Below are positions 1,155 through 32,077 of a stretch of 32,472 bases of DNA, piece after piece. The DNA comes from a virus. Numbering within the stretch: the first letter of the stretch is position 1; every line of letters starts with the position of its first letter. The stretch covers positions 1-32,472 of the IMG/VR virus record IMGVR_UViG_3300037635_000469. One strand, 5' to 3'. The position numbers and the translations under genes are program-made. The notes under the pieces were generated by a model that had not been told where the DNA came from, made no database searches, and worked only from the letters and a program-made list of their open reading frames with translations.

Positions 1155-2163
1155 GGAACTCAGTCTGGAGGAAGCGTTGACGCGAGTCGCCAACGCACGG
1201 GCCGGGGAAGGGGCATCCGTTGATGCCCCGACCCCGGCACCCTCGCAGCCTCCAGCAGAAATAGAGGGAATATCCGCAGCAGACCTGCAAAGACTATTCA
1301 CACCGAAGCGTGAGCAAGTCAGGCGTATGCGCCATGACCTGCGTTCCGGCAGCGAATGGTCTTTCGGAGTGCGGGTGTTCGATGAAGCCACCTTGGGTGG
1401 GGCACGCGCCGGTCAGTTGGTGACCGTTATCGGTCGCTCGCACACAGGCAAGACGCTGCTGGCCTTGAACATGGTGGCCCGCAACCGCAACCACCGCACC
1501 CTGTGGGTTAGTCCAGATGAAACCGAAACAATGTTCTGGGGCCGATACGCAGCCATACGTATGCAGATCGACCAGAAGGATTGGATCGGTCGCCTCATCA
1601 GGGAAGACCCGACCGCTTGGGAACGTGTCGAACAACTCATGCGTGACGAAACGAACCTGCACTTTGAATCCACAGGCATGTCCGTTGACGACATCGACAA
1701 GGCCATGCGTATCGCTTCAGTTGAGTTGTGGGAAGGGCAACGACCCGAAGTGCTGGTGTACGACTACTTGGAGTTGATTCGGGGTGGAGGCTCTGGCGAT
1801 GCGGCCAGCGTGCAAGCCAAGATCGAATCGTTCAAGCAGTTGGTATCTGACTGGCGTGTCGTAGGCGTGATCTTGCATCAGTCTGGCCGGGGTTCAGGGA
1901 ACCGTGGCCGGGCCGGTGGCATCGAAGCCGGGCGTTACGCATCCACCAGTGAAAGCCACTTCCTGATTGAAACGTGGCGCAGGTGGGATGACACCAACAT
2001 GGATGAAGCAGAGCGGACGCACTATGAAAATGAAATCAGTGCGGGTTTGTGGAAGAATAAGTCAGGCGATGGAGAGAAAGCGGAAGTCAACCTGACCATC
2101 GACGCAAGCGGAAGGTTGTTGGAACCGGGGATCGTATGGGAGCAGATGATTCTGGATGAATGA
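1147..2163 (+). CDS. RecA/DnaB-fold ATPase, putative replicative helicase
   Basis: The 338-aa protein has a P-loop GRSHTGKT at residues 96-103. Its Walker B strand VLVYD is at 202-206, followed by YLELI. A GVILHQSGRGSG segment near 240-250 matches the sensor/H4-type motif of DnaB and KaiC-like ATPases. This is the RecA-fold domain of DnaB-type helicases (AAA_25/DnaB_C group). The N-terminal 60 residues are a Pro/Ala-rich tail, so the canonical DnaB N-terminal helical domain is missing. It starts at GTG 1147, inside the end of the upstream gene, and overlaps the primase gene by eight bases. The natural reading is a replicative helicase paired with the AEP primase encoded next. A recombination ATPase of the RecA/Sak4 type is an alternative that the sequence alone does not exclude. 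Confidence 0.85.
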   Translation: MAEELSLEEALTRVANARAGEGASVDAPTPAPSQPPAEIEGISAADLQRLFTPKREQVRRMRHDLRSGSEWSFGVRVFDEATLGGARAGQLVTVIGRSHTGKTLLALNMVARNRNHRTLWVSPDETETMFWGRYAAIRMQIDQKDWIGRLIREDPTAWERVEQLMRDETNLHFESTGMSVDDIDKAMRIASVELWEGQRPEVLVYDYLELIRGGGSGDAASVQAKIESFKQLVSDWRVVGVILHQSGRGSGNRGRAGGIEAGRYASTSESHFLIETWRRWDDTNMDEAERTHYENEISAGLWKNKSGDGEKAEVNLTIDASGRLLEPGIVWEQMILDE

Positions 2164-3211
2164 GATACTTCCTGCTTCACAGATGCGAACCCTTTTCATC
2201 GGGTTCAACCTTGCCTACGGGACTGACGCCGGTGGCTGCCGGTGGGCAGACGTTGACGACACGCTATTGGAGCGGCACCTATCGGGCGAAGAGATGATCG
2301 GGATTTATCCGATGGTCTACGACCCCCATTATGAACGGGGCGGCTCCGATACATGGCGTGAAGATATTGATGATAACCGCTATTACGTGGAGATGGAGCC
2401 AGACCTGTGGATGTGCCGGTGGGGTTCCATCGACATCGACGAAGGCGATGACTCCCTGACTTACGCAAGAAGCGTTCAAAACATTTTGCGTGCGTTGGAC
2501 ATTCAATGCTGGTTGGAACGCTCACGCAGCAAGGGCTATCACGTTTGGGTATTCAACAAGGACTGGGTGAAGGCATCGACTATGCGCCGCGCCATGAAGG
2601 CGGCGCTTGACCTTGCCGACATTCCTTACGATGCCGTCTATCCGAAACAGGATTCGTTGAAGGGTCCACCCGGCAACTACATGCGCTTACCGTATGGTGG
2701 TAAACGTCCTGAGCATCGGCAGGTTGTCGTAGATAGCAGCAGCGATAGCGAAACCGACGAGGAATGGTTGGATCTATTCGACTTCATCATCCTCGCAGAA
2801 CAAGGACGGACGCCTACAGCCACGCTGGAGGCGGCTGCCGCCTTGTATCAGGAACCGGAACCCATCTACCCAGACCTGCCACCCAAGCGGGACTACAGCA
2901 AGGAACCCCTAATGAACGTGGATGGCTCACGCTTGCGTGGGCTATCAGCGGAGATGTACGAGAATGGTCCCGTCCCGTACTATCGTGGTACTGGTGCTGG
3001 CCGTGGTCGGCACGGCTTCCTCAACAGGTTCGCCCGTTCGATGATCGAATCGGGTTACTCTCAAGGGGACGTTACGTCATGGACGAAAGACCTAGACACA
3101 CGATTGGGGCAATGGTGGGAAGACGGACCCAAGTTCACAGGCAGGCATGACTGCGACCGACAAATCGAAAGGCTTGTCCAAGACGCAAGCCGAAGAGCCA
3201 GCGTTAGATGA
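2156..3211 (+). CDS. Archaeo-eukaryotic-type (AEP, TOTE-like) DNA primase
   Basis: This 351-aa protein carries the AEP primase signature. The metal-binding DID is at residues 93-95 (GSIDIDEGDD). The nucleotide-binding Ser/Lys-x-x-His stretch SRSKGYHVWVF is near 123-133. Downstream, YPKQDSLKG and GNYMRLPYG (about 162-181) match the conserved Q-to-LP stretch of the primase domain found in TOTE-type and many phage primases. Residues 240-351 form a separate C-terminal helical part with DRQIERLVQDASRR at the end. It is coupled to the upstream helicase-like gene by an eight-base overlap, so the two probably form a priming-unwinding pair. This differs from T7, where one DnaG-type polypeptide does both. 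Family assignment rests on the motifs; replicative use is inferred. Confidence 0.85.
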   Translation: MNEILPASQMRTLFIGFNLAYGTDAGGCRWADVDDTLLERHLSGEEMIGIYPMVYDPHYERGGSDTWREDIDDNRYYVEMEPDLWMCRWGSIDIDEGDDSLTYARSVQNILRALDIQCWLERSRSKGYHVWVFNKDWVKASTMRRAMKAALDLADIPYDAVYPKQDSLKGPPGNYMRLPYGGKRPEHRQVVVDSSSDSETDEEWLDLFDFIILAEQGRTPTATLEAAAALYQEPEPIYPDLPPKRDYSKEPLMNVDGSRLRGLSAEMYENGPVPYYRGTGAGRGRHGFLNRFARSMIESGYSQGDVTSWTKDLDTRLGQWWEDGPKFTGRHDCDRQIERLVQDASRRASVR

Positions 3212-14692: not shown

Positions 14693-16981
14693 TCAACCGT
14701 ATGGGCGTCGCCGCGCTAGATCATTCACAATGTCCCGTGCACCCCCAGCAGCCGTTCCCAACCAGCCGAAGGTATAACCTTCGTCGTTTGGAGGGGTTGT
14801 TCCGGGGGCTTGTCCTTGTGCAACATTACCCCCCGGTCGCATCGACGCGCCAGCAGGGTCAGTCAAATCGCCACGAACTGGAGTCCTTGCTGCTCCACGC
14901 CCGCCGGTTCCAGCCCCTCCACTACGATTACGCAGATCAGTTGCCTGCTGTGCGGCTATATGATTCGCTGCCTGAACCGCCTTGTTCGCAGCATCAATCT
15001 CCGCAAAGAACAATCGGATTCGACCAATATCGTCCGCATCCATCGCACCGCCCTCTAGCCCAACCTCAGCCTGCAACGCTTCCAGATAGACTTTCTGCTC
15101 ATCTTCAGTCATCCCGACCATGTGTTCAGCATGAAGGATATGGCTGCTGTTTTCCTGACCGTACTTACCAACCATATTGGCGTAAGAACCCGCATTCCAA
15201 CGGGCACCCTGCGTGTCCTCAGCAGCCACCTTATCCTTATACATCTGAGTCTTCGCTGCCTCCGGTAGCGCATCCCACAACGCTGCACCTTCAGGACCAT
15301 CTACACCCATGAAGAAACTAGCCGCTTCAGCAGAACCAGCCGCCACCGCTGCAGCAGCCGCACTCTCTGCCGCACTGTTAGCAATCCTGATCCGATCCTG
15401 TTCAGTGTTCGCTTCACGAATCTGCTGCTGCTGACGCTGGAAGTTTGTAGTCGCAGCATCCGTCTGGGCCTTCCGATCCAAACTACGCTGGCGCCCACTC
15501 TCAGCCATCTGATCGCGCTGAAGATCCCGACCCAACTCCGCTTCACTAACCCGCAAAGCCCGATCCAACACTGACTCACCCTCACGCCAAGCACGCTCAT
15601 CAACAGCCTGCTCACCCTGCCACTTACGCTGATCCGTGGCCTGATCGCCCTGCCACAGCCTCTGCGCCGCCTGCTCATCCGACTGGAAAGCCTGCCCCTG
15701 TAGGCGCTCTGCCTCACGGGTAAGGAAGTCCTCGCGGCGACCCATGTCGCCAAGCAACGCCCCAATCATTGCCTCATCACGTTGCGTATTGAACTCTTCC
15801 TGACGCATCGACTCTGACAAGAGGCGCTGCGTTTGCTCCTGATCCAACCCCTGCAACATCCGGAAAGCCTCATCGCCCAAAGCCAACTTCGCTTCAGCAC
15901 CCAACTGGCCCGGCGCAGCAGCACGCTCCGCAGAAGCCATATTGGCGATCTGAGCAAGACGCGACATGGCGTCCTGCGAAGAAGCAGCCTGAGAACCAGC
16001 CTGACCCCCAACCAACTGCGCGACCTGTTCAAACTCATCCGTAACCTGCGGACCCAAATCCGCACGAGCCGTAGCCAAACGATCCGCAACCCCACCAGTC
16101 AAACCAGAAGCACGACCAGCAACAGCATCAATCAAAGCCTTCTGCTGTTCAAGACGACCAGTTTCAAGGGCGCCTACATCAATCCCCAACTGTCGGGCAA
16201 TCTCATCAATCTGAGTACCCCTGCGGCTCTCAGCCTCAGTAACACCAGTCCGACGTTCACCAATCATCTCTCTAATCTTTGCGCTGTAATCGGTTGTAGT
16301 GAGTTCACCCATCAACCTGCGGATTTCAGAATCCAAATCCGCTGGACGATAAAAGTTTGATGGGTCCGATGCAGGCAAAGGGGCTGGCCCCGGTGGTACA
16401 TACGGTGGTACATACGGATCGGGGTCAACGACGGGATCTACAACAGTCCCGTCAACAACAGGAACCTCTGTAGTTGTGGGAACATTTGTAGTTGTAGCGG
16501 GAGCATCTGTAGTTGTACCGCCATCATTCGACGGCGCAAGAGTGCTCAAGAAAGCAGCCAACTCGGCGGCAGTATCAGCCCCCGTCTTCGTTATCGCTGC
16601 CGAAAAATCTGCCGGATTGTAAGCATCCCGATAATTGGTGGGCATCGGCTGACCCGGACGCTGCTGAACACCAGCAGCCGCAGCACCTTCCGCTACCGCA
16701 TTTCTGATAATCGCCTGCATGTTAGGTGAACCACCAAGTCGGCTTCCGTCTGTTTGTGGCGCTGCTTGCAACGCCTGCAAGTCACCCCACTGAAAGGGGG
16801 TGTTTGGGGACGGGGCAGCGCCACGAATCGCTGCCGAAAAGTCAGCAGGATTGTAACTACTCTTCTGAGCAGTTCTAGCAACCGCATCCTCCAAAGCCTT
16901 AGCCTGCTTAGAACGAACTACCGATTCCATCGGACTAGAAACACGCGCTGAACGCGCCCGCTGACCGGGGTCCATAGCCAT
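14693..16981 (-). CDS. Internal virion-like protein, coiled coil with short repeats
   Basis: This 762-aa protein is rich in Ala, Gln, Glu and Arg. Its N-terminal third carries YNPADFSAAI twice (residues about 43 and 120) and a related YRPADLDSEI near 210. These are spaced by low-complexity linkers, including a Thr-rich stretch and a Pro/Val/Asp stretch (VDPDPYVPPYVPP). Residues about 340-520 are a long charged helix with roughly 11-residue repeats built on WQGEQAVDER. The C-terminus is Gly-rich. There is no enzyme motif. Start ATG overlaps the upstream stop by one base and the giant gene follows after one base, so the two are co-translated. It probably belongs with the 138-aa and 2840-aa proteins to the material ejected with the DNA or the inner core; this is by analogy with T7 gp14-16. 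Confidence 0.8.
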   Translation of the reverse strand: MAMDPGQRARSARVSSPMESVVRSKQAKALEDAVARTAQKSSYNPADFSAAIRGAAPSPNTPFQWGDLQALQAAPQTDGSRLGGSPNMQAIIRNAVAEGAAAAGVQQRPGQPMPTNYRDAYNPADFSAAITKTGADTAAELAAFLSTLAPSNDGGTTTDAPATTTNVPTTTEVPVVDGTVVDPVVDPDPYVPPYVPPGPAPLPASDPSNFYRPADLDSEIRRLMGELTTTDYSAKIREMIGERRTGVTEAESRRGTQIDEIARQLGIDVGALETGRLEQQKALIDAVAGRASGLTGGVADRLATARADLGPQVTDEFEQVAQLVGGQAGSQAASSQDAMSRLAQIANMASAERAAAPGQLGAEAKLALGDEAFRMLQGLDQEQTQRLLSESMRQEEFNTQRDEAMIGALLGDMGRREDFLTREAERLQGQAFQSDEQAAQRLWQGDQATDQRKWQGEQAVDERAWREGESVLDRALRVSEAELGRDLQRDQMAESGRQRSLDRKAQTDAATTNFQRQQQQIREANTEQDRIRIANSAAESAAAAAVAAGSAEAASFFMGVDGPEGAALWDALPEAAKTQMYKDKVAAEDTQGARWNAGSYANMVGKYGQENSSHILHAEHMVGMTEDEQKVYLEALQAEVGLEGGAMDADDIGRIRLFFAEIDAANKAVQAANHIAAQQATDLRNRSGGAGTGGRGAARTPVRGDLTDPAGASMRPGGNVAQGQAPGTTPPNDEGYTFGWLGTAAGGARDIVNDLARRRPYG

Positions 16982-17397
16982 TACGGCACCAAACCCTGCA
17001 ACGTCTGCGACACCGCAAACCTACGCATCGCATTAGCGATCTGGTCATCGACCAGACCGCCATACAAATTCTCTTCCAACAAGTTGCGCTGCTTATCCAA
17101 CTGGCGGCGCGCCGCCTCCGCAGAAGACTCAACCCCCGAACGGCCCAACTCGGCCTGCCCAGCAGCAATCTCACGGCCCCTACGGAACTGACCCGAATCC
17201 AACATGCCTCGCCTGTTGAAAGAACCCGGCAACTCACGGGCTGCCTTCTTGATCTGCTGATTAGTACGGAACATATTCATAGACTGCTCCCGACCTAAAC
17301 GGTCGGAAGCACGCTGAATATCATCAAGACCATAGCCGTACTCTTGAGTACGACGCCCCATAGACCCTGAGCGTTCTGCATAACCCGAATACGCCAC
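16981..17397 (-). CDS. Small virion-like helical protein
   Basis: The 138-aa product starts at GTG 17397. It has a Gly/Tyr/Ser-rich N-terminus (MAYSGYAERSGSMGRRTQEYGYG) and a long helix of charged residues with ARELPGSFNRRGMLDSGQFRRGRE in the middle. It has no predicted membrane segment. Proteins with the same 'LPGSFNRRGMLDSG' turn sit beside the large internal proteins in other phages as I recall them. Its stop overlaps the ATG of the 762-aa gene (TAATG), which ties it to that module. A role in the inner-core or tail complex is inferred from position. Confidence 0.75.
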   Translation of the reverse strand: MAYSGYAERSGSMGRRTQEYGYGLDDIQRASDRLGREQSMNMFRTNQQIKKAARELPGSFNRRGMLDSGQFRRGREIAAGQAELGRSGVESSAEAARRQLDKQRNLLEENLYGGLVDDQIANAMRRFAVSQTLQGLVP

Positions 17398-28004: not shown

Positions 28005-28670
28005 TCAGGGTGTCCCACGGATCGTGTTCAAACCGATGGTATCAGCATCCGGGGTACCCGTAGGCACCTGTCGGCGCCACCAATCAAACGTCCAAGAATC
28101 ATCAACCTTCTGCACGTACTCAGGCACAAAAGCGTACTTGCGCATCTGGTTCGCCAAAGCCAAAGCCATAACACGGTCGTCATACGGCGACCCATTCATC
28201 GAACCCCGCTCATTGCGAACAAACGTCCGCAACTCGCCCATCGTGTCCTTGCAATGAAGAACCAATTCTTCATTCTTCAACGCCATAGCCAAATCATCAA
28301 TCATCAAAGGCTTCGACGTTCGCGTCGTCTTCCAACCAAACTCCTGCGACATCCGATTCGTTTCCTTATTCAACGAACGCTTACGAAACAGATTCGGATA
28401 CCCCAACTGACGCAACTGAACAATCGTCGTCAACCCATGATTGTTCGACTCCACACAACACAAAGCATTCCCATACCAAATACCAAGATTGTAAACCTCA
28501 TGAGCCAACTCATCAGGCGGAATACGGCCATGCCACACAGCAACCTGCTGACATTCCTTCACATCTATAACCTGCACGCACGAATAATCGCCGTGACCCA
28601 AACCCTCCGCAGTATCCACACCCAACACGTAACCGCTCCAACGCTGCGGATACTCCCACACAGTCAGCAT
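28005..28670 (-). CDS. terL: Terminase large subunit, nuclease half
   Basis: A 221-aa RNase-H-fold nuclease domain that in most phages is the C-terminal part of TerL. The three acidic positions are D19 (YVLGVDTAEGLGHGD), E74 (CCVESNNHG) and D164/D165 (SPYDDRVMALALA). The start ATG 28670 lies inside the ATPase gene end, sharing ATGCTGA. Its first residues, LTVWEYPQRWSGYV, match the usual bridge between the ATPase and nuclease domains, so little or nothing is missing between the two genes. It cuts concatemeric DNA at headful or site-specific ends. Either this is a true two-gene terminase or a -1 frameshift links the halves. Confidence 0.88.
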   Translation of the reverse strand: MLTVWEYPQRWSGYVLGVDTAEGLGHGDYSCVQVIDVKECQQVAVWHGRIPPDELAHEVYNLGIWYGNALCCVESNNHGLTTIVQLRQLGYPNLFRKRSLNKETNRMSQEFGWKTTRTSKPLMIDDLAMALKNEELVLHCKDTMGELRTFVRNERGSMNGSPYDDRVMALALANQMRKYAFVPEYVQKVDDSWTFDWWRRQVPTGTPDADTIGLNTIRGTP

Positions 28671-29551
28671 CGAAACTCCAACACATTCTTCTGAAGTTCA
28701 TGCAGATAACCCTGCTCCCCCGCACGCAAATGCACATACATGCGATCAAGAACATCCAGATCAAACACCGGGTTACCAGACCTCACAAACGCTTCCTCAG
28801 GCGACGTTGGATACTCCTGAGCCAACTGCCACGGCAACATCGACTGCCGCTTACCCTCATACCACGACTCGTCCCGATCCTCCGACGCAGACCACGGAAA
28901 AAACATCGGATCAAACTTGTTGTTCCCCGTCGTCGCACCCGTCCATAAGTGATGAAAGAAGTTTCCGCTTCCATTCGCCGTGCTAAGACCAATGATTCGG
29001 CCTCCGACATCGGCCACTGGCTCAATGGACGCCCACGCTTCCTCTGGGTTAGGTAAAAATGCCCACTCATCAACTACAACCAGCGACGCAGACTCGCCAC
29101 GGGCAGGGTCCGACGCCGAAGGCATCGAAGTAATCTGACTACCATTGCTAAAAACCATCCTCTGTTGATGATCGACCAACGACCGTGGGCCACGATCCAA
29201 CATCCAATCCGGCAAATACTTGTGCCCATACTTCGTCTTACGCAAAAGCAGCACCGCTTCCCGCTCTGTACGCGACAAATCAATAATATTCTGATCTTCC
29301 TTAAAAAACGCCAACCAAAACTGGTGGGCGGCGACCAACGTCGTCCACCCAATCTGCCGGGCCTTCAAAGTCAACGAATAACGGTTATCATCCCACCGCT
29401 TCAAAGCCTCAGACTGGGCACCCCGAAGATCAAACAATATTCGGCCATGAGCAGGATGGGCAATATGCCAATACATACGCAAGAAGTACGACTCATCCGC
29501 AACACAGTGCCGCCACTCGGCTTCCTGCCGCAGTTCACTCAGACGCCCCAT
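28664..29551 (-). CDS. terL: Terminase large subunit, ATPase half
   Basis: The 295-aa protein is the packaging ATPase domain. LTLKARQIGWTT (residues 60-71) holds the variant P-loop of terminases. LVVVDEWAFLP (157-167) is Walker B with catalytic E162, and IIGLSTANGSGNFF is the coupling motif III. RLSELRQEAEWRHCVADESYFLRMYWHI is the N-terminal helical part. The frame ends at TGA within ATGCTGA, just where a nuclease domain should begin. Start ATG 29551 follows the previous stop after one base (TAGATG). It powers DNA translocation at the portal. The split is discussed in the findings. Confidence 0.9.
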   Translation of the reverse strand: MGRLSELRQEAEWRHCVADESYFLRMYWHIAHPAHGRILFDLRGAQSEALKRWDDNRYSLTLKARQIGWTTLVAAHQFWLAFFKEDQNIIDLSRTEREAVLLLRKTKYGHKYLPDWMLDRGPRSLVDHQQRMVFSNGSQITSMPSASDPARGESASLVVVDEWAFLPNPEEAWASIEPVADVGGRIIGLSTANGSGNFFHHLWTGATTGNNKFDPMFFPWSASEDRDESWYEGKRQSMLPWQLAQEYPTSPEEAFVRSGNPVFDLDVLDRMYVHLRAGEQGYLHELQKNVLEFRC

Positions 29552-29799: not shown

Positions 29800-29912
29800 C
29801 ACTTACGCTTCTTAGCGTGAGTAACCTTCTTACCAGTCCGCTTCGCCGCCGCCTTAGCAGCAGCCCTACCCTTCGCACTATACGAATAATGCTTCTTACC
29901 AACCCTAGGCAC
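29799..29912 (-). CDS. Tiny basic protein
   Basis: A 37-aa product from GTG 29912, overlapping the terS end by eight bases. MPRVGKKHYSYSAKGRAAAK is followed by a Lys/Ala-rich helix ending in HAKKRK. Very similar tiny basic peptides (VGKKHFPY...GRKAAKAYAKKTGK) are found in other phages, from memory, usually near structural or packaging genes. It probably binds nucleic acid or acts as a small virion component. Its strong positive charge and conservation of the N-terminus are the evidence. Confidence 0.68.
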   Translation of the reverse strand: MPRVGKKHYSYSAKGRAAAKAAAKRTGKKVTHAKKRK

Positions 29913-30363
29913 TCTCCACCATCCTCAAATGTCGCACCTCAGCCTCCAAAGCAGAAGCCAACTCCTCATCACTAAAGCCCGCAACGTCCCGCTCATCATC
30001 AACAACAACCTTACGCTTAGGCGTAAACTTCTCAATGTACTGAAGATACAAAGAAGCCGCCTTCACATCGCCATCGGAAGCCCTCTGCCAGAGCGAGTCG
30101 ATTACGCTCTGAACCCGTTCCGGGTTGATGTTCAGTTCTGCTGCACGCCGGTCCCATTCTTTGATGAACCGGTGGTCGCGTTTGATTCGCCGTAGCGAAT
30201 CTTCATGTATTTTGTTTTCTGTCGCCCAGTCGCGCTGTGTGCGCGGCTGGCGCTCTGGTCCTCTGAGTAGCCAGTCTAGGAAGTCTTGCCAGCGGTCAGG
30301 CATGATCTGTTGGCCGCTTTCTTCGTCCCAATGCCAGCCTTGTCCGCCACCGTTTTGCGGCAT
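29905..30363 (-). CDS. terS: Terminase small subunit
   Basis: The 152-aa protein has a helix-turn-helix near residues 41-62 (RTQRDWATENKIHEDSLRRIK) and the following helices RFIKEWDRRAAELN and VQSVIDSLWQRASDGDVKAASLYLQYIEKF. These are the DNA-binding and oligomerisation parts of small terminases. The KRKVVVDD segment leads to an acidic C-terminal tail for TerL contact. Start ATG 30363 follows GGAGAC by several bases. It recognises phage DNA for packaging. It is the first gene of the leftward late operon, next to the noncoding control region. Confidence 0.88.
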   Translation of the reverse strand: MPQNGGGQGWHWDEESGQQIMPDRWQDFLDWLLRGPERQPRTQRDWATENKIHEDSLRRIKRDHRFIKEWDRRAAELNINPERVQSVIDSLWQRASDGDVKAASLYLQYIEKFTPKRKVVVDDERDVAGFSDEELASALEAEVRHLRMVESA

Positions 30364-30485
30364 GTTTGTCTCCGTTCTGTATGCGTCTTCACCATAACAT
30401 GCCGGTGTCCCATTCGGGCGTCTGGGGGGGGTATCGGTAAAACAGATAGCAGGTATCTGTAGAAACTGTGGGACAAACGGTCTTT

Positions 30486-30496
30486 ACTATAGGGAG
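30486..30496 (+). promoter_or_regulatory. T7-promoter-like core, or host promoter -10 region
   Basis: ACTATAGGGAG equals positions -6 to +5 of the T7 RNA polymerase promoter consensus exactly. The upstream recognition part (-17 to -7) matches poorly, 14 of 23 bases overall. It lies on the + strand 417 bases before the first small gene. No RNA polymerase gene is present in the window, so a phage polymerase would have to lie outside. TACTAT could instead serve as a weak host -10 box; no convincing -35 is seen. Confidence 0.4.
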
Positions 30497-30502
30497 GGAG
30501 GC

Positions 30503-30562
30503 GGTACTAAGTACCATCTCCCGGCCCCCAGCCGGGAGATGATACTAAGTACCTACTGAGTA
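30503..30562 (+). promoter_or_regulatory. Three palindromic operator-like sites, TACTNAGTA
   Basis: GGTACTAAGTACC at 30503-30515 is a perfect 13-base palindrome. GATACTAAGTACC at 30541-30553 is the same with one mismatch, and TACTGAGTA at 30554-30562 is a third core. The first and second flank the 11-bp GC hairpin at 30515-30541. They start ten or so bases downstream of the promoter-like core. Repeated palindromes here are the classic form of dimeric repressor or activator sites, or of short origin iterons. The binding protein is not known; the HTH protein at 4041-4412 is one candidate. Confidence 0.55.
30515..30541 (+). promoter_or_regulatory. GC-rich perfect hairpin between operator-like sites
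   Basis: Arms CATCTCCCGGC (30515-30525) and GCCGGGAGATG (30531-30541) are perfect 11-bp complements around loop CCCCA. There is no T-run after it on either strand, so a simple intrinsic terminator is unlikely. It may fold in the 5' leader of the rightward transcript. Confidence 0.6.
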
Positions 30563-30613
30563 CCTTTATGCGCATACAGGCCAAAGGTATATAACAGAAC
30601 GCACCGGGAACCC

Positions 30614-30631
30614 ATATCTATACATAGATAT
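30614..30631 (+). repeat. AT-rich inverted repeat
   Basis: ATATCTAT (30614-30621) and ATAGATAT (30624-30631) are perfect complements separated by AC. This is the most AT-rich palindrome of the control region, and sits next to AAAGGTATATAACAG. It could be an unwinding element or a protein-binding site. Confidence 0.5.
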
Positions 30632-30643
30632 AGACTGGACCCC

Positions 30644-30797
30644 CACCCCCCGTAGGGGGGTGCCCCCCGCAGTCCGACGGTCCTCGGGCGCGCGCACGGC
30701 ATTTCCGTAGGAAATGCGAGCCAAACCGGCCAAATCAGAACTCCCGAAGGGAGTTCAACGCGCAGCCGACCGGGCAGGCGCTGTTGCTCTGCAACAG
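30644..30797 (+). repeat. Series of four perfect 7-8 bp triloop hairpins in the leader
   Basis: Four hairpins occur in 154 bases: 30644-30662 (CACCCCCC, loop GTA), 30699-30717 (GCATTTCC, loop GTA), 30738-30756 (GAACTCCC, loop GAA) and 30781-30797 (CTGTTGC, loop TCT). Each stem is perfect but unrelated in sequence to the others. The form, not the sequence, is repeated. This suggests selection at the RNA level in a long 5' leader, or repeated quasi-palindrome formation during replication. Confidence 0.65.
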
Positions 30798-30828
30798 TAC
30801 GTGGGCGAGAGGTTCGGCGGCAGCGGAG

Positions 30829-30877
30829 CATCCCCAGATATTCCCTTGAACGTAGTGAAAGGGAATATCGGGGGATG
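30829..30877 (+). promoter_or_regulatory. Long hairpin 36 bases before the first small gene
   Basis: Arms 30829-30847 and 30859-30877 pair at 18 of 19 positions with one A-G mismatch. The 11-base loop GAACGTAGTGA sits within TTGAACGTAGTGAA, closely like the loop of the hairpin at 32029-32077 (TTGAACAAAGTGAA) although the stems differ. An A-run, not a T-run, follows, so it is not a standard terminator. An RNase III-type processing site, a stabiliser or a protein-binding RNA is more likely. Confidence 0.65.
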
Positions 30878-30912
30878 GCCCCTCGAAAAAAAATCCCAAT
30901 CGGAGGAAATCC

Positions 30913-31293
30913 ATGACGAAGACAATCACCCTCACGAACGATCAACTGGAGTTGATCGTAAAGGCCGCTGTGGAGACTGCTTTGCAGTCCGTGGCACCGG
31001 AGCCGAAGGCTCCGGCGAAGAAGAAGACTTCTTCGAAGAAGAAGGTTGATCCGTTGGCCCCGAAGAAGACGGCGAAGCCGTCGGCACCGAAGGTGGACCG
31101 GGCAGCCCGGAAAGCACAGAACAAGGTTCTGTGGCGTCAGATCAACGGCAAGGTTCAGAAGGCGGAGAACGCCAAGACCTTGGTCTTGGCGAATGGCTTC
31201 CTGAAGGAAGCCATGGCGATGACTCCGGCGTCTTGGACTTCAGTCCAGAACAAGATTGTCGCCAAGCAGGAACTGCTTGGTATCACGGTCTAG
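30913..31293 (+). CDS. Small basic protein, first of the hairpin-rich cassette
   Basis: A 126-aa protein with a clear CGGAGG site six bases before ATG 30913. The N-terminus TLTNDQLELIVKAAVETALQ is one amphipathic helix. Residues 28-66 are a Pro/Ala/Lys-rich linker (APEPKAPAKKKTSSKKKVD, KKTAKPSAPK), reminiscent of histone-H1-like tails. The C-terminal 60 residues are helical (LWRQINGKVQKAENAKTLVLANGFLKEAM, WTSVQNKIVAKQELLG). It is probably a nucleic-acid-binding protein, but no family is recognised. The coding sequence itself contains at least ten perfect inverted repeats (listed under 30938-31588), a very unusual density. Confidence 0.82.
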   Translation: MTKTITLTNDQLELIVKAAVETALQSVAPEPKAPAKKKTSSKKKVDPLAPKKTAKPSAPKVDRAARKAQNKVLWRQINGKVQKAENAKTLVLANGFLKEAMAMTPASWTSVQNKIVAKQELLGITV

Positions 31294-31588
31294 TTCAGCC
31301 GAAACACCCGGTCCCTGAAGGGACCGGGTGTCGGTCGGGATTCGCCATCCGGCCCTGATGAGGTAGGCGCGTACAGGGAGGTGCTATGAAGAACTTGCTT
31401 CGCAAGTTTGTGTGGAACCTGATCGAAGATCAGGTTTGGGATGCTATTTCCGAGTTTGATGAGGACTTGGATGCCGTACTCTTCGGTAACGAAGAGTACG
31501 GCATTGAGTCGGCCATTGGATCTCTCGTAAGGCGGGAGATTCGGAAGGCTGATATCCGGCGCACGAATCTTCGTATCAATACGAAGAT
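30938..31588 (+). repeat. Tiled perfect inverted repeats inside two coding sequences
   Basis: Inside the gene at 30913-31293: 30938-30959 (10-bp arms), 30975-30989 (6, loop TTT), 30997-31015 (8, GAA), 31028-31044 (7, GAA), 31098-31110 (5, CAG), 31115-31133 (8, AAG), 31170-31191 (10, TT), 31193-31214 (9, TGAA), 31234-31247 (6, TC) and 31262-31280 (8, GAA). Inside the gene at 31386-31667: 31392-31408 (7, TTC), 31416-31436 (9, GAA), 31471-31504 (15, GTAA), 31520-31540 (8, one G-U pair) and 31567-31588 (10, CA). Stems have different sequences and are not copies of each other. Confidence 0.8.
31304..31331 (+). promoter_or_regulatory. Intergenic hairpin between first and second small genes
   Basis: Arms of 12 bp (31304-31315 and 31320-31331, core CACCCGGTCCC) pair perfectly around loop TGAA. 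It follows the first gene's stop by ten bases. TCGGTCGGG, not a T-run, follows, so intrinsic termination would be weak at best. It sits where the hairpins ahead of the other small genes sit. Confidence 0.65.
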
Positions 31589-31667
31589 CAATGCGGCTCT
31601 AGCCAATGCCACTGTCGCCCCGCATATGGCAGGCGACATCGGATGCCCCGGACTGGACGACTTCTAA
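31386..31667 (+). CDS. Small hypothetical protein, second of the cassette
   Basis: A 93-aa protein with a strong GGGAGGT five bases before ATG 31386. It is helical and charged: KNLLRKFVWNLIEDQVWDAISEF, DAVLFGNEEYGIESAIGSLVRREIRKADIRRTN, and then a short tail GDIGCPGLDDF. The N-terminal amphipathic helix could bind membrane or RNA. No family is recognised. Its coding sequence holds a perfect 15-bp-arm hairpin (31471-31504) and four others, so silent codon positions appear constrained by base pairing. Confidence 0.78.
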   Translation: MKNLLRKFVWNLIEDQVWDAISEFDEDLDAVLFGNEEYGIESAIGSLVRREIRKADIRRTNLRINTKINAALANATVAPHMAGDIGCPGLDDF

Positions 31668-31675
31668 CGGTAAGA

Positions 31676-31724
31676 CTCCTGTCCATCTCTTCTCTTATGA
31701 AGTAAGAGAAGAGATGGACTGGAG
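31676..31724 (+). promoter_or_regulatory. Very long intergenic hairpin with conserved flanks, copy 1
   Basis: Arms of 22 positions (31676-31697 and 31703-31724) pair at 21, with one T-T mismatch and loop TGAAG. The outer part CTCCTGTCCA...TGGACTGGAG is shared with the hairpin at 32029-32077, while the inner stems differ but stay paired. It lies nine bases after the second gene's stop and 33 before the third gene. AGTCC and a purine-rich stretch follow, not a T-run. Confidence 0.75.
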
Positions 31725-31756
31725 AAGTCCAAAGTTTCGACGATGAAAGGGATGCC

Positions 31757-32020
31757 ATGACAATGAAGAACACAACCCACGAGGAAGCAACTTTCAAGCA
31801 GATTGCCCGGTGTTTGAAGGCGTATAGGGATCTGGACGCTGCGTTCTGGCCGTTCGTTCACGCTATAGCCGACGATGACGAGACTGCCAACGATCCTAGT
31901 GCTGCCGCTGAGTTGATGCGACGGATGCTGGCGGTAACGCTGTCCGACATCTACTTTGCCGCCGTTGGCGGTGATCGTGACGAGTTCCTAGCAGCAGCAG
32001 ACGCAGACATACTGCGCTAG
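31757..32020 (+). CDS. Small hypothetical protein, third of the cassette
   Basis: An 87-aa protein; AAAGGG lies five bases before ATG 31757 (a second in-frame ATG follows two codons later). It is acidic and helical: EATFKQIARCLKAYRDLDAAFWPFVHAIADDDE, then SAAAELMRRMLAVTLSDIYFAAVGG. The second helix is hydrophobic on one face. No family is recognised. Unlike the two genes before it, I see few inverted repeats inside it (only a 5-bp CCGCC/GGCGG pair). It is flanked by the two paralogous hairpins. Confidence 0.75.
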   Translation: MTMKNTTHEEATFKQIARCLKAYRDLDAAFWPFVHAIADDDETANDPSAAAELMRRMLAVTLSDIYFAAVGGDRDEFLAAADADILR

Positions 32021-32028
32021 ACAACGGA

Positions 32029-32077
32029 CTCCTGTCCACTCTCTCTTGAACAAAGTGAAAGAGAGAGTGGACTGGAG
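32029..32077 (+). promoter_or_regulatory. Very long intergenic hairpin with conserved flanks, copy 2
   Basis: Inner arms of 14 bp (32034-32047 and 32059-32072) plus outer CTCC/GGAG across a single T-T mismatch. The 11-base loop GAACAAAGTGA matches the 30829-30877 loop at 9 of 11 positions. The flanks match the 31676-31724 copy (GACTCCTGTCCA and TGGACTGGAG). It therefore combines features of both other hairpins. An AGTCCAAAAAAA stretch follows and the next gene starts 36 bases on. Confidence 0.75.

Follow-up and report, generated by a model that had tools for sequence, protein, structure and literature searches.

Ordered RNA structure on a genome scale, pervasive through coding sequence, is a feature of RNA viruses, in which it is diffuse, imperfect and genome-wide, and DNA hairpins recognised by their structure, among them integron attC sites, are cases in which form outweighs sequence. 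At the level of mutation, template switching both makes and maintains hairpins (PMC8794818), and mutations of this kind, which homogenise arms and invert spacers, produce non-synonymous changes in coding genes (PMC8604942) and have been studied in highly transcribed yeast DNA (PMC3820800). Hammerhead and pistol ribozymes, for their part, occur between phage genes (PMC3088659, PMC4604425).

The stretch of DNA analysed here (the window) comprises all 32,472 bases of IMGVR_UViG_3300037635_000469 (record G000), which is linear in IMG/VR and belongs to a tailed phage with its late genes running leftward and its early genes rightward. The late genes include terS (so named from its position before the terminase, no family match having been found for it), the terminase, a portal of the SU10/P22 type, a major capsid protein (PHROG 9953) and an amidase, and the early genes a DnaB-type helicase, an AEP primase and a RusA resolvase. 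The primase is of the AEP type found in TOTE conflict systems and adjoins the helicase; visual inspection of the early ORFs listed for the relative G001 revealed no DNA polymerase. The terminase large subunit is apparently encoded by two overlapping genes, one matching terminase families and the next, which overlaps it by 7 bases, without a Pfam match.

Two small early genes, ORF126 and ORF93, had been predicted from their sequence to be tiled with perfect inverted repeats. This observation is confirmed, and the array is larger than first described: it lies at the divergent junction of late and early genes, immediately to the right of terS, and spans approximately 30442 to 31724, taking in a 5' non-coding region, both genes and the spacers 31294-31385 and 31668-31756 (Table 1). 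The coordinates given in the original prediction were right but too narrow, and that reading overlooked the non-coding half of the tract, a hammerhead ribozyme lying between ORF126 and ORF93, and the fact that relatives conserve the tract. When perfect stems with arms of at least 6 bases and loops of 2-5 bases are counted, ORF126 contains the ten hairpins claimed and ORF93 four rather than five, the remaining one requiring a G-T pair; the palindrome at 31471-31504, with 15-bp arms and a 4-base loop, is present as claimed.

Table 1. Coordinates of the tract, of neighbouring features and of related loci. Positions refer to the window unless a relative is named.
Feature	Position	Strand	Remarks
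terS	29905-30363	leftward	Late gene
Terminase large subunit	28005-29551	minus	Parts 28664-29551 and 28005-28670
Late protein, 2840 residues	6169-14691	minus	
Small late gene	16981-17397	minus	
AEP primase	2156-3211	+	PF22548, E 1.7e-19
Non-coding hairpins	30442-30460, 30515-30541, 30614-30631, 30644-30662, 30699-30717, 30738-30756, 30781-30797		Perfect-stem count
Three TACTNAGTA palindromes	30505-30513, 30543-30551, 30554-30562		Flank the 11-bp-arm hairpin 30515-30541
Long quasi-hairpin upstream of ORF126	30829-30877	+	Conserved tip TGAACNNAGTGAA at 30847-30859
ORF126 (ORF1)	30913-31293	+	Basic 126-residue protein; ten perfect hairpins in coding sequence
ORF126 hairpins 1-5	30938-30959, 30975-30989, 30997-31015, 31016-31035, 31068-31082	+	
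ORF126 hairpins 6-10	31115-31133, 31170-31191, 31193-31214, 31234-31247, 31262-31280	+	
Type II hammerhead ribozyme	31297-31372	+	Rfam RF02276, 37.7 bits
ORF93	31386-31667	+	Hairpins 31392-31408, 31416-31436, 31471-31504, 31567-31588; G-T-paired one near 31520-31540
Long hairpin ending the tract	31676-31724	+	17-bp perfect inner arms (31681-31719), T-T mismatch, then 4 pairs
Isolated hairpin outside the dense tract	32029-32077	+	Tip TGAACAAAGTGAA; like the long hairpin 31676-31724
Pistol ribozymes downstream of ORF1	L157:144-206, L153:2522-2583	minus	RF02679; 53.5 and 51.9 bits
Type II hammerheads of L131	L131:3704-3767, L131:4023-4086	minus	About 320 nt apart
tmRNA-like genes	L153:2334-2416, L141:837-942, L162:2666-2748, L100:1961-2043, L109:80-161	minus	RF00023

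These numbers are far above those expected from the encoded proteins. Against synonymous shuffles made within each gene, with protein and codon usage kept (n = 300), ORF126 has 10 hairpins and 160 stem bases versus 1.5 and 20 (z 9.5), and ORF93 has 4 hairpins and 82 stem bases versus 0.3 and 4.7 (z 10); none of the 300 shuffles matched the observed stem bases of either gene, so that the claim of tiling is not refuted by codon-preserving shuffling. The two also stand alone among 24 genes of the genome in stem density (42 and 29 stem bases per 100, respectively, versus 0-12.5 in the 22 others tested), and the next gene (31757-32020) contains no hairpin by the perfect-stem count. A minor second excess is seen in a small late gene (4 hairpins, 52 stem bases versus 3.8 in codon shuffles). 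In the non-coding part, 30442-30912, there are 7 hairpins with 114 stem bases, compared with 8 ± 10 under a Markov null, and single-strand folding of 30900-31720 gives z values of -14.6 (RNA, plus strand) and -19.3 (DNA, minus strand) relative to 20 shuffles. As had been claimed, comparison within the window did not find the stems to be copies of one another, for which reason a repeat family or mobile hairpin (REP, MITE, CRISPR) was rejected. No arm of at least 12 bases recurs in the remainder of its genome, with the exception of one 12-mer in the window, and guide-like targeting is disfavoured because of this.

Several more regular elements accompany the array. The sequence TACTNAGTA occurs three times in the window, compared with 0.09 expected, and nowhere else in it; it is found at the equivalent place in nearly all relatives, in which the hairpin that it flanks is compensated. 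This module, upstream of terS (30505-30562), looks operator- or promoter-like. In nearly all relatives, a hairpin close to terS is flanked by a pair of TACTNAGTA copies about 40 nt apart (for example at L175:14889 and 14928), several genomes have a second pair elsewhere, and in L014 and L150 the sequence lies inside many of the array hairpins. The tip motif TGAACNNAGTGAA similarly recurs in many relatives, in long hairpins that precede early start codons. The hairpin that ends the tract has a GGAG sequence on its 3' arm, the 3' arm of the isolated hairpin further right ends in GGAG ahead of the next start codon, and in several long tip-motif hairpins (for example in L151 and at window 32029-32077) the 3' arm lies over a Shine-Dalgarno sequence, an arrangement that, as read from sequence, suggests translational control.

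Relatives of the phage, judged by capsid and terS, are abundant among environmental virus contigs, which are metagenome assemblies and are called marine here from the look of their sources rather than record by record. A scan of genome contigs for a host returned nothing beyond distant prophages and metagenome-assembled contigs from Acidimicrobiaceae and Euryarchaeota bins, and a search for terminal repeats found a 20-base match of the start at the far end in G010 only. With terS as the anchor, the upstream sequence of about 50 relatives was followed in the direction of the early genes. Ten or more hairpins with arms of at least 7 bases are present in the first 1.5 kb of 18 of the 26 non-redundant loci for which 1.5 kb was available, compared with 0.87 expected from the background; in total, 303 distinct hairpins (arms of at least 7 bases) were found in 55.9 kb of tracts versus 101 in 174.9 kb of background, a 9.4-fold difference in density. 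In G001, G002, G004 and G010 hairpins are denser in the tract on the terS side than anywhere else in the genome, and in G003, G011 and G012 the tract is weaker. Within the phage group it is about 1-3 kb long and runs through non-coding and protein-coding DNA at the start of the early genes. L157 and L151 have chains of perfect hairpins with 6-22-bp arms across the leader and the entire first gene, L014 and L066 successive long hairpins with 15-19-bp arms, and L109 a tiling of about 3 kb through several genes.

ORF1, the first early gene, is homologous throughout the relatives. Codon shuffling shows its tiling to be significant in most lineages tested, and it is absent in L104, L106, L162 and L164. 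Hairpin density in fact differs widely among lineages, with few hairpins at the terS-side place in L100 and none or almost none in L131. The stems are mostly unrelated from one lineage to another, with partial sharing of stem cores in L014, L066 and L150, while their place is constant. The proposal that form is kept rather than sequence is thus borne out, since hairpins at the equivalent place in relatives have stems that are either unrelated or compensated. No such tract was found in distant capsid relatives (34-39% identity; L168-L172 and L193-L196), a set that includes Mx8, BUCT555, 45A6, ct52p938 and prophages. One distant relative, the spring-water podovirus MW202803.1 (L193:20387-21487; 38.6% capsid identity), carries an annotated RNA ligase, RusA and primase small subunit.

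The manner in which the hairpins change is the most informative aspect of the comparison. In comparisons of homologous hairpins, counted over pairs of relatives that are not independent, the stem had changed and was still perfect in 71 cases and the hairpins differed in the loop only in 76, while a single pair was broken in 86 and two or more pairs in 96. Between L115 and L117, which are 93% identical, two hairpins are altered on both arms and one loop is flipped, with none broken; the coding changes are GATCACC-TTC-GGTGATC versus GATCGGC-TAC-GCCGATC, ACGGTCTTGG...CCAAGACCGT to ACGGTTCTGG...CCAGAACCGT, and GTCACTTTAGTGAC to GTCACTAAAGTGAC. L153 and L157 differ by five compensated hairpins, and one of the paired changes is non-synonymous (VPSEP to VPSAP). 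In two-base loops, seven of eight distinct changes are exact reverse-complement flips, versus 1.6 under the null and none as extreme in 5,000 simulations; three-base loops looked enriched for flips by eye, but the count (4 of 38, null 3.5) gives no excess. Two-arm changes together with loop flips are the signature of DNA template switching. A quasi-palindrome process, one of the options raised in the original prediction, has therefore left clear marks, and the compensatory changes looked for in homologs are present, both arms changing together with complementarity kept. Template switching is accordingly the probable maker of the hairpins, and we infer the enzyme-level mechanism from these marks.

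Whether the hairpins are also retained by selection is a separate matter. Pooled over all pairs, loops diverge about twice as much as linkers and stems about half as much, the stem/linker ratio being 0.46 in non-coding DNA and 0.67 in ORF1, which is weak evidence for selection because the choice of perfect hairpins alone can halve stem divergence. In the L153/L157 pair, divergence is 0.033 in stems, 0.151 in linkers and 0.474 in loops, and the resulting ratio of 0.22 lies below the bound set by this choice. These values bear on the possibility that the tract is a mutation hotspot without function, in which template switching is most frequent in the first early unit, near a likely replication zone or zone of replication-transcription conflict, and hairpins pile up by self-repair in a first early gene that tolerates them. 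We regard this as a serious alternative, albeit a somewhat unlikely one. It would account for the hypervariable and flipping loops, the joint change of arms and the wide variation in density between lineages, and the study of such mutations in highly transcribed yeast DNA is in keeping with it. It is less easily reconciled with a tract that is confined to one unit and long-lived across unrelated stems, with the occurrence of a 36-41-nt size class of long non-coding hairpins in separate lineages, with hairpins that overlap conserved ORF1 residues such as N70, or with the 4.6 times lower divergence of stems than of linkers between L153 and L157.

The loops have a restricted vocabulary. Three-base loops are commonest, 131 of 155 being closed by 5'-C...G-3' (background 26 of 88), and 75 of the 155 are of the form C-GNA-G or its complement C-TNC-G, compared with 6 of 88 in the background, a bias that would also be expected from easy fold-back at a hotspot. 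According to Yoshizawa (1997), as cited in PMC6479982, C-GNA-G forms an extraordinarily stable DNA mini-hairpin. This stability, in addition to Watson-Crick pairing and loop types that are nearly symmetric between strands (GAA 28 and TTC 26, AA 18 and TT 17, GA 5 and TC 5), would suit a function in DNA, the hairpins or cruciforms acting at a replication origin or control region, for example by offering sites for landing or priming on open strands. Such a role might be served by the phage-encoded DnaB-type helicase and AEP primase, and the cumulative GC skew has its minimum at 30-31 kb, where the genes diverge. GC skew, however, tracks gene direction too and is no proof of an origin; moreover, the tiling follows genes and stops at the ends of ORF1 or ORF2 in several lineages, and L131, which lacks hairpins there, presumably still replicates. 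We therefore consider a DNA-level function unlikely. The linker motifs TTTGG/CCAAA and GGCTGG are used in both orientations, with no clear rule.

A single G-U pair had been taken to favour folding at the RNA level, an argument that the wobble counts do not support. Unique single-mismatch states on the early strand comprise 25 G-T, 16 A-C and 34 others (p = 0.21), two other counts gave G-T to A-C ratios of 21 to 13 and 11 to 18, and both loop orientations are used about equally; wobble as a proof of the RNA level was rejected for lack of a significant G-T excess over A-C. Loop types are near-symmetric between strands overall, an excess of GNA over TNC (20 to 8) being confined to the leader and non-coding part (19 to 17 in ORF1). 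Any early-strand preference in wobble or loops is thus at most weak. RNA-level selection could nevertheless go unseen in wobble pairs, because fast repair to Watson-Crick pairing by template switching would hide them.

Also of note is a predicted RNA-processing element within the tract. In an Rfam search, the hammerhead of the window starts 4 bases past the stop codon of ORF126 and scores 37.7 bits against a gathering threshold of 37 for RF02276, its relatives scoring 37.7-46.9 bits. The intergenic 13-bp hairpin at 31304-31331 is its stem III, cleavage is predicted after C31332 (GUC), and a pseudoknot, read by eye, is possible between 31343-31346 (CGCC, loop I) and 31366-31369 (GGCG, 3' tail); published type II hammerheads show similar pseudoknot pairing (PMC3088659). 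A type II hammerhead directly follows ORF1 in the window, L089, L093, L112 and L141, hammerheads being found at the equivalent place in L112/L005, L141, L089 and L093 and likewise in L100 and L101. The core CUGAUGA / CGAAA / GUC is invariant in the alignment, and the stem III sequences differ in L100 and L112. In L153 and L157 a pistol ribozyme further downstream takes the place of the hammerhead, and in L150 a terminator-like hairpin with a T-run comes right after ORF1. The tiled unit therefore has a defined 3' end in several lineages. Hammerhead and tiling are associated by place rather than tied to each other, because L100 and L131 carry hammerheads without dense tiling; the contig of L131, almost without a hairpin tract, has two of type II. 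Early-strand tmRNA-like genes of 82-106 nt, scoring 62-81 bits against RF00023, are also present in five loci; they are limited to the tRNA-like domain, with CCA or the like at the 3' end, and have no space for a tag reading frame. That of L153 lies about 100 nt after the pistol ribozyme.

The best reading of these observations, which we put forward tentatively and as falling short of probable, is that the hairpins owe their origin and repair to template switching and that their form is retained in a ribozyme-processed early RNA. The array covers the leader and the first gene or genes of the presumed early transcript. A polymerase that switched template between two close inverted-repeat arms would copy one arm onto the other, so that a single switch could render the arms perfect in one step, change both together and flip the loop. 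The form of the hairpin, and not the sequence of its stem, would then be retained, most likely because an early RNA folded into successive tight hairpins, and thereby largely free of single-stranded stretches, is useful; single-strand-specific RNases of the host or its defences, for example, might be unable to attack it. Such an RNA would be separable from the downstream message by the predicted type II hammerhead cut and, in relatives, by a hammerhead, a pistol ribozyme or a terminator-like hairpin. The coincidence of the tract with the unit of early leader and first gene, with the hammerhead between genes, supports this view; we infer both that selection retains the hairpins and that they function at the level of the early RNA. 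Evidence against it is the lack of a significant strand preference in wobble, the near-symmetry of loop orientation, the relatives that have a hammerhead or ORF1 with few or no hairpins (L100, L131 and the four untiled ORF1 genes) and, in L109, the continuation of tiling past the first gene.

The product of the tiled gene offers a further possibility, namely that the hairpins are protein binding sites, perhaps for the ORF1 product on its own message. ORF1 is basic and its C-terminal part is predicted to form a three-helix bundle (pLDDT about 97) with a faint bS20/TPR-like resemblance; its profile scores 27.7 against one bS20, compared with a maximum of 19.6 for shuffled columns. The hhalign probability is 43%, however, the fold search gave no significant match and the bS20 family search no hit, so that identification of ORF1 as bS20 was rejected, the shape being suggestive only. 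ORF1 also exists without hairpins, and protein binding appears very unlikely as the explanation. The short stems and three-base loops are reminiscent, too, of the N4-type hairpin promoters read by a virion RNA polymerase, and the late region does encode a protein of 2840 residues. This protein has no Pfam match and a weak PHROG tail match; as it lacks any match to an RNA polymerase, N4-like promoters were rejected, and with stems that have no common promoter sequence and occur in tens of copies through genes we find the idea scarcely credible.

No papers on such hairpin arrays were found in the open-licence literature, and the arrangement, in which form is kept without sequence, through coding DNA and at a place fixed within the clade, is undescribed in the literature and libraries searched. 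Whereas template switching is generally inferred from isolated, rare events, the tract preserves a natural and dense record of it, and it asks whether a mutation process can build and keep a functional structure. It also cautions against taking compensatory changes at two sites, by themselves, as proof of selection at the RNA level. Should the folded early RNA prove functional, the phage would be shaping its first transcript in a novel manner and using a ribozyme to form the end; if the hotspot reading is true, the tract is an extreme variant of template-switch mutagenesis. In its most far-reaching form, which we consider rather unlikely as a whole, the proposal is of a self-renewing array, in which template switching would continually rebuild perfect hairpins of arbitrary sequence over the whole early unit, yielding a ribozyme-trimmed hairpin-chain RNA that functions, for example, against single-strand RNases of host defence and also encodes a small basic protein.

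No known system fits the tract, each of those considered failing a tested defining feature or covering one component only. In contrast to the ordered structure of RNA viruses, the phage is a DNA virus with short, local, perfect hairpins in one tract of 1-3 kb. REP/BIME elements, MITE-type palindrome arrays and CRISPR arrays likewise consist of many (inverted) repeats in series, but these are copies of one sequence, whereas the phage stems differ, apart from the partial core sharing described above. Compared with integron attC sites, no recombinase, conserved boxes or cassettes were seen, and the phage loops are of 2-5 bases with perfect stems. The type II hammerhead and pistol ribozymes of phages are matched directly, by RF02276 in the window and its relatives and by RF02679 in L153 and L157, in both cases between phage genes; the ribozymes of the tract are ordinary family members, and the surrounding hairpins lie outside both families. 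Quasi-palindrome mutations of E. coli, yeast and rRNA genes share with the tract arm homogenisation, two-site changes, loop inversion and non-synonymous coding changes (PMC8604942, PMC8794818), but there they are scattered single events, whereas the phage tract consists of tens of perfect hairpins at one conserved place.
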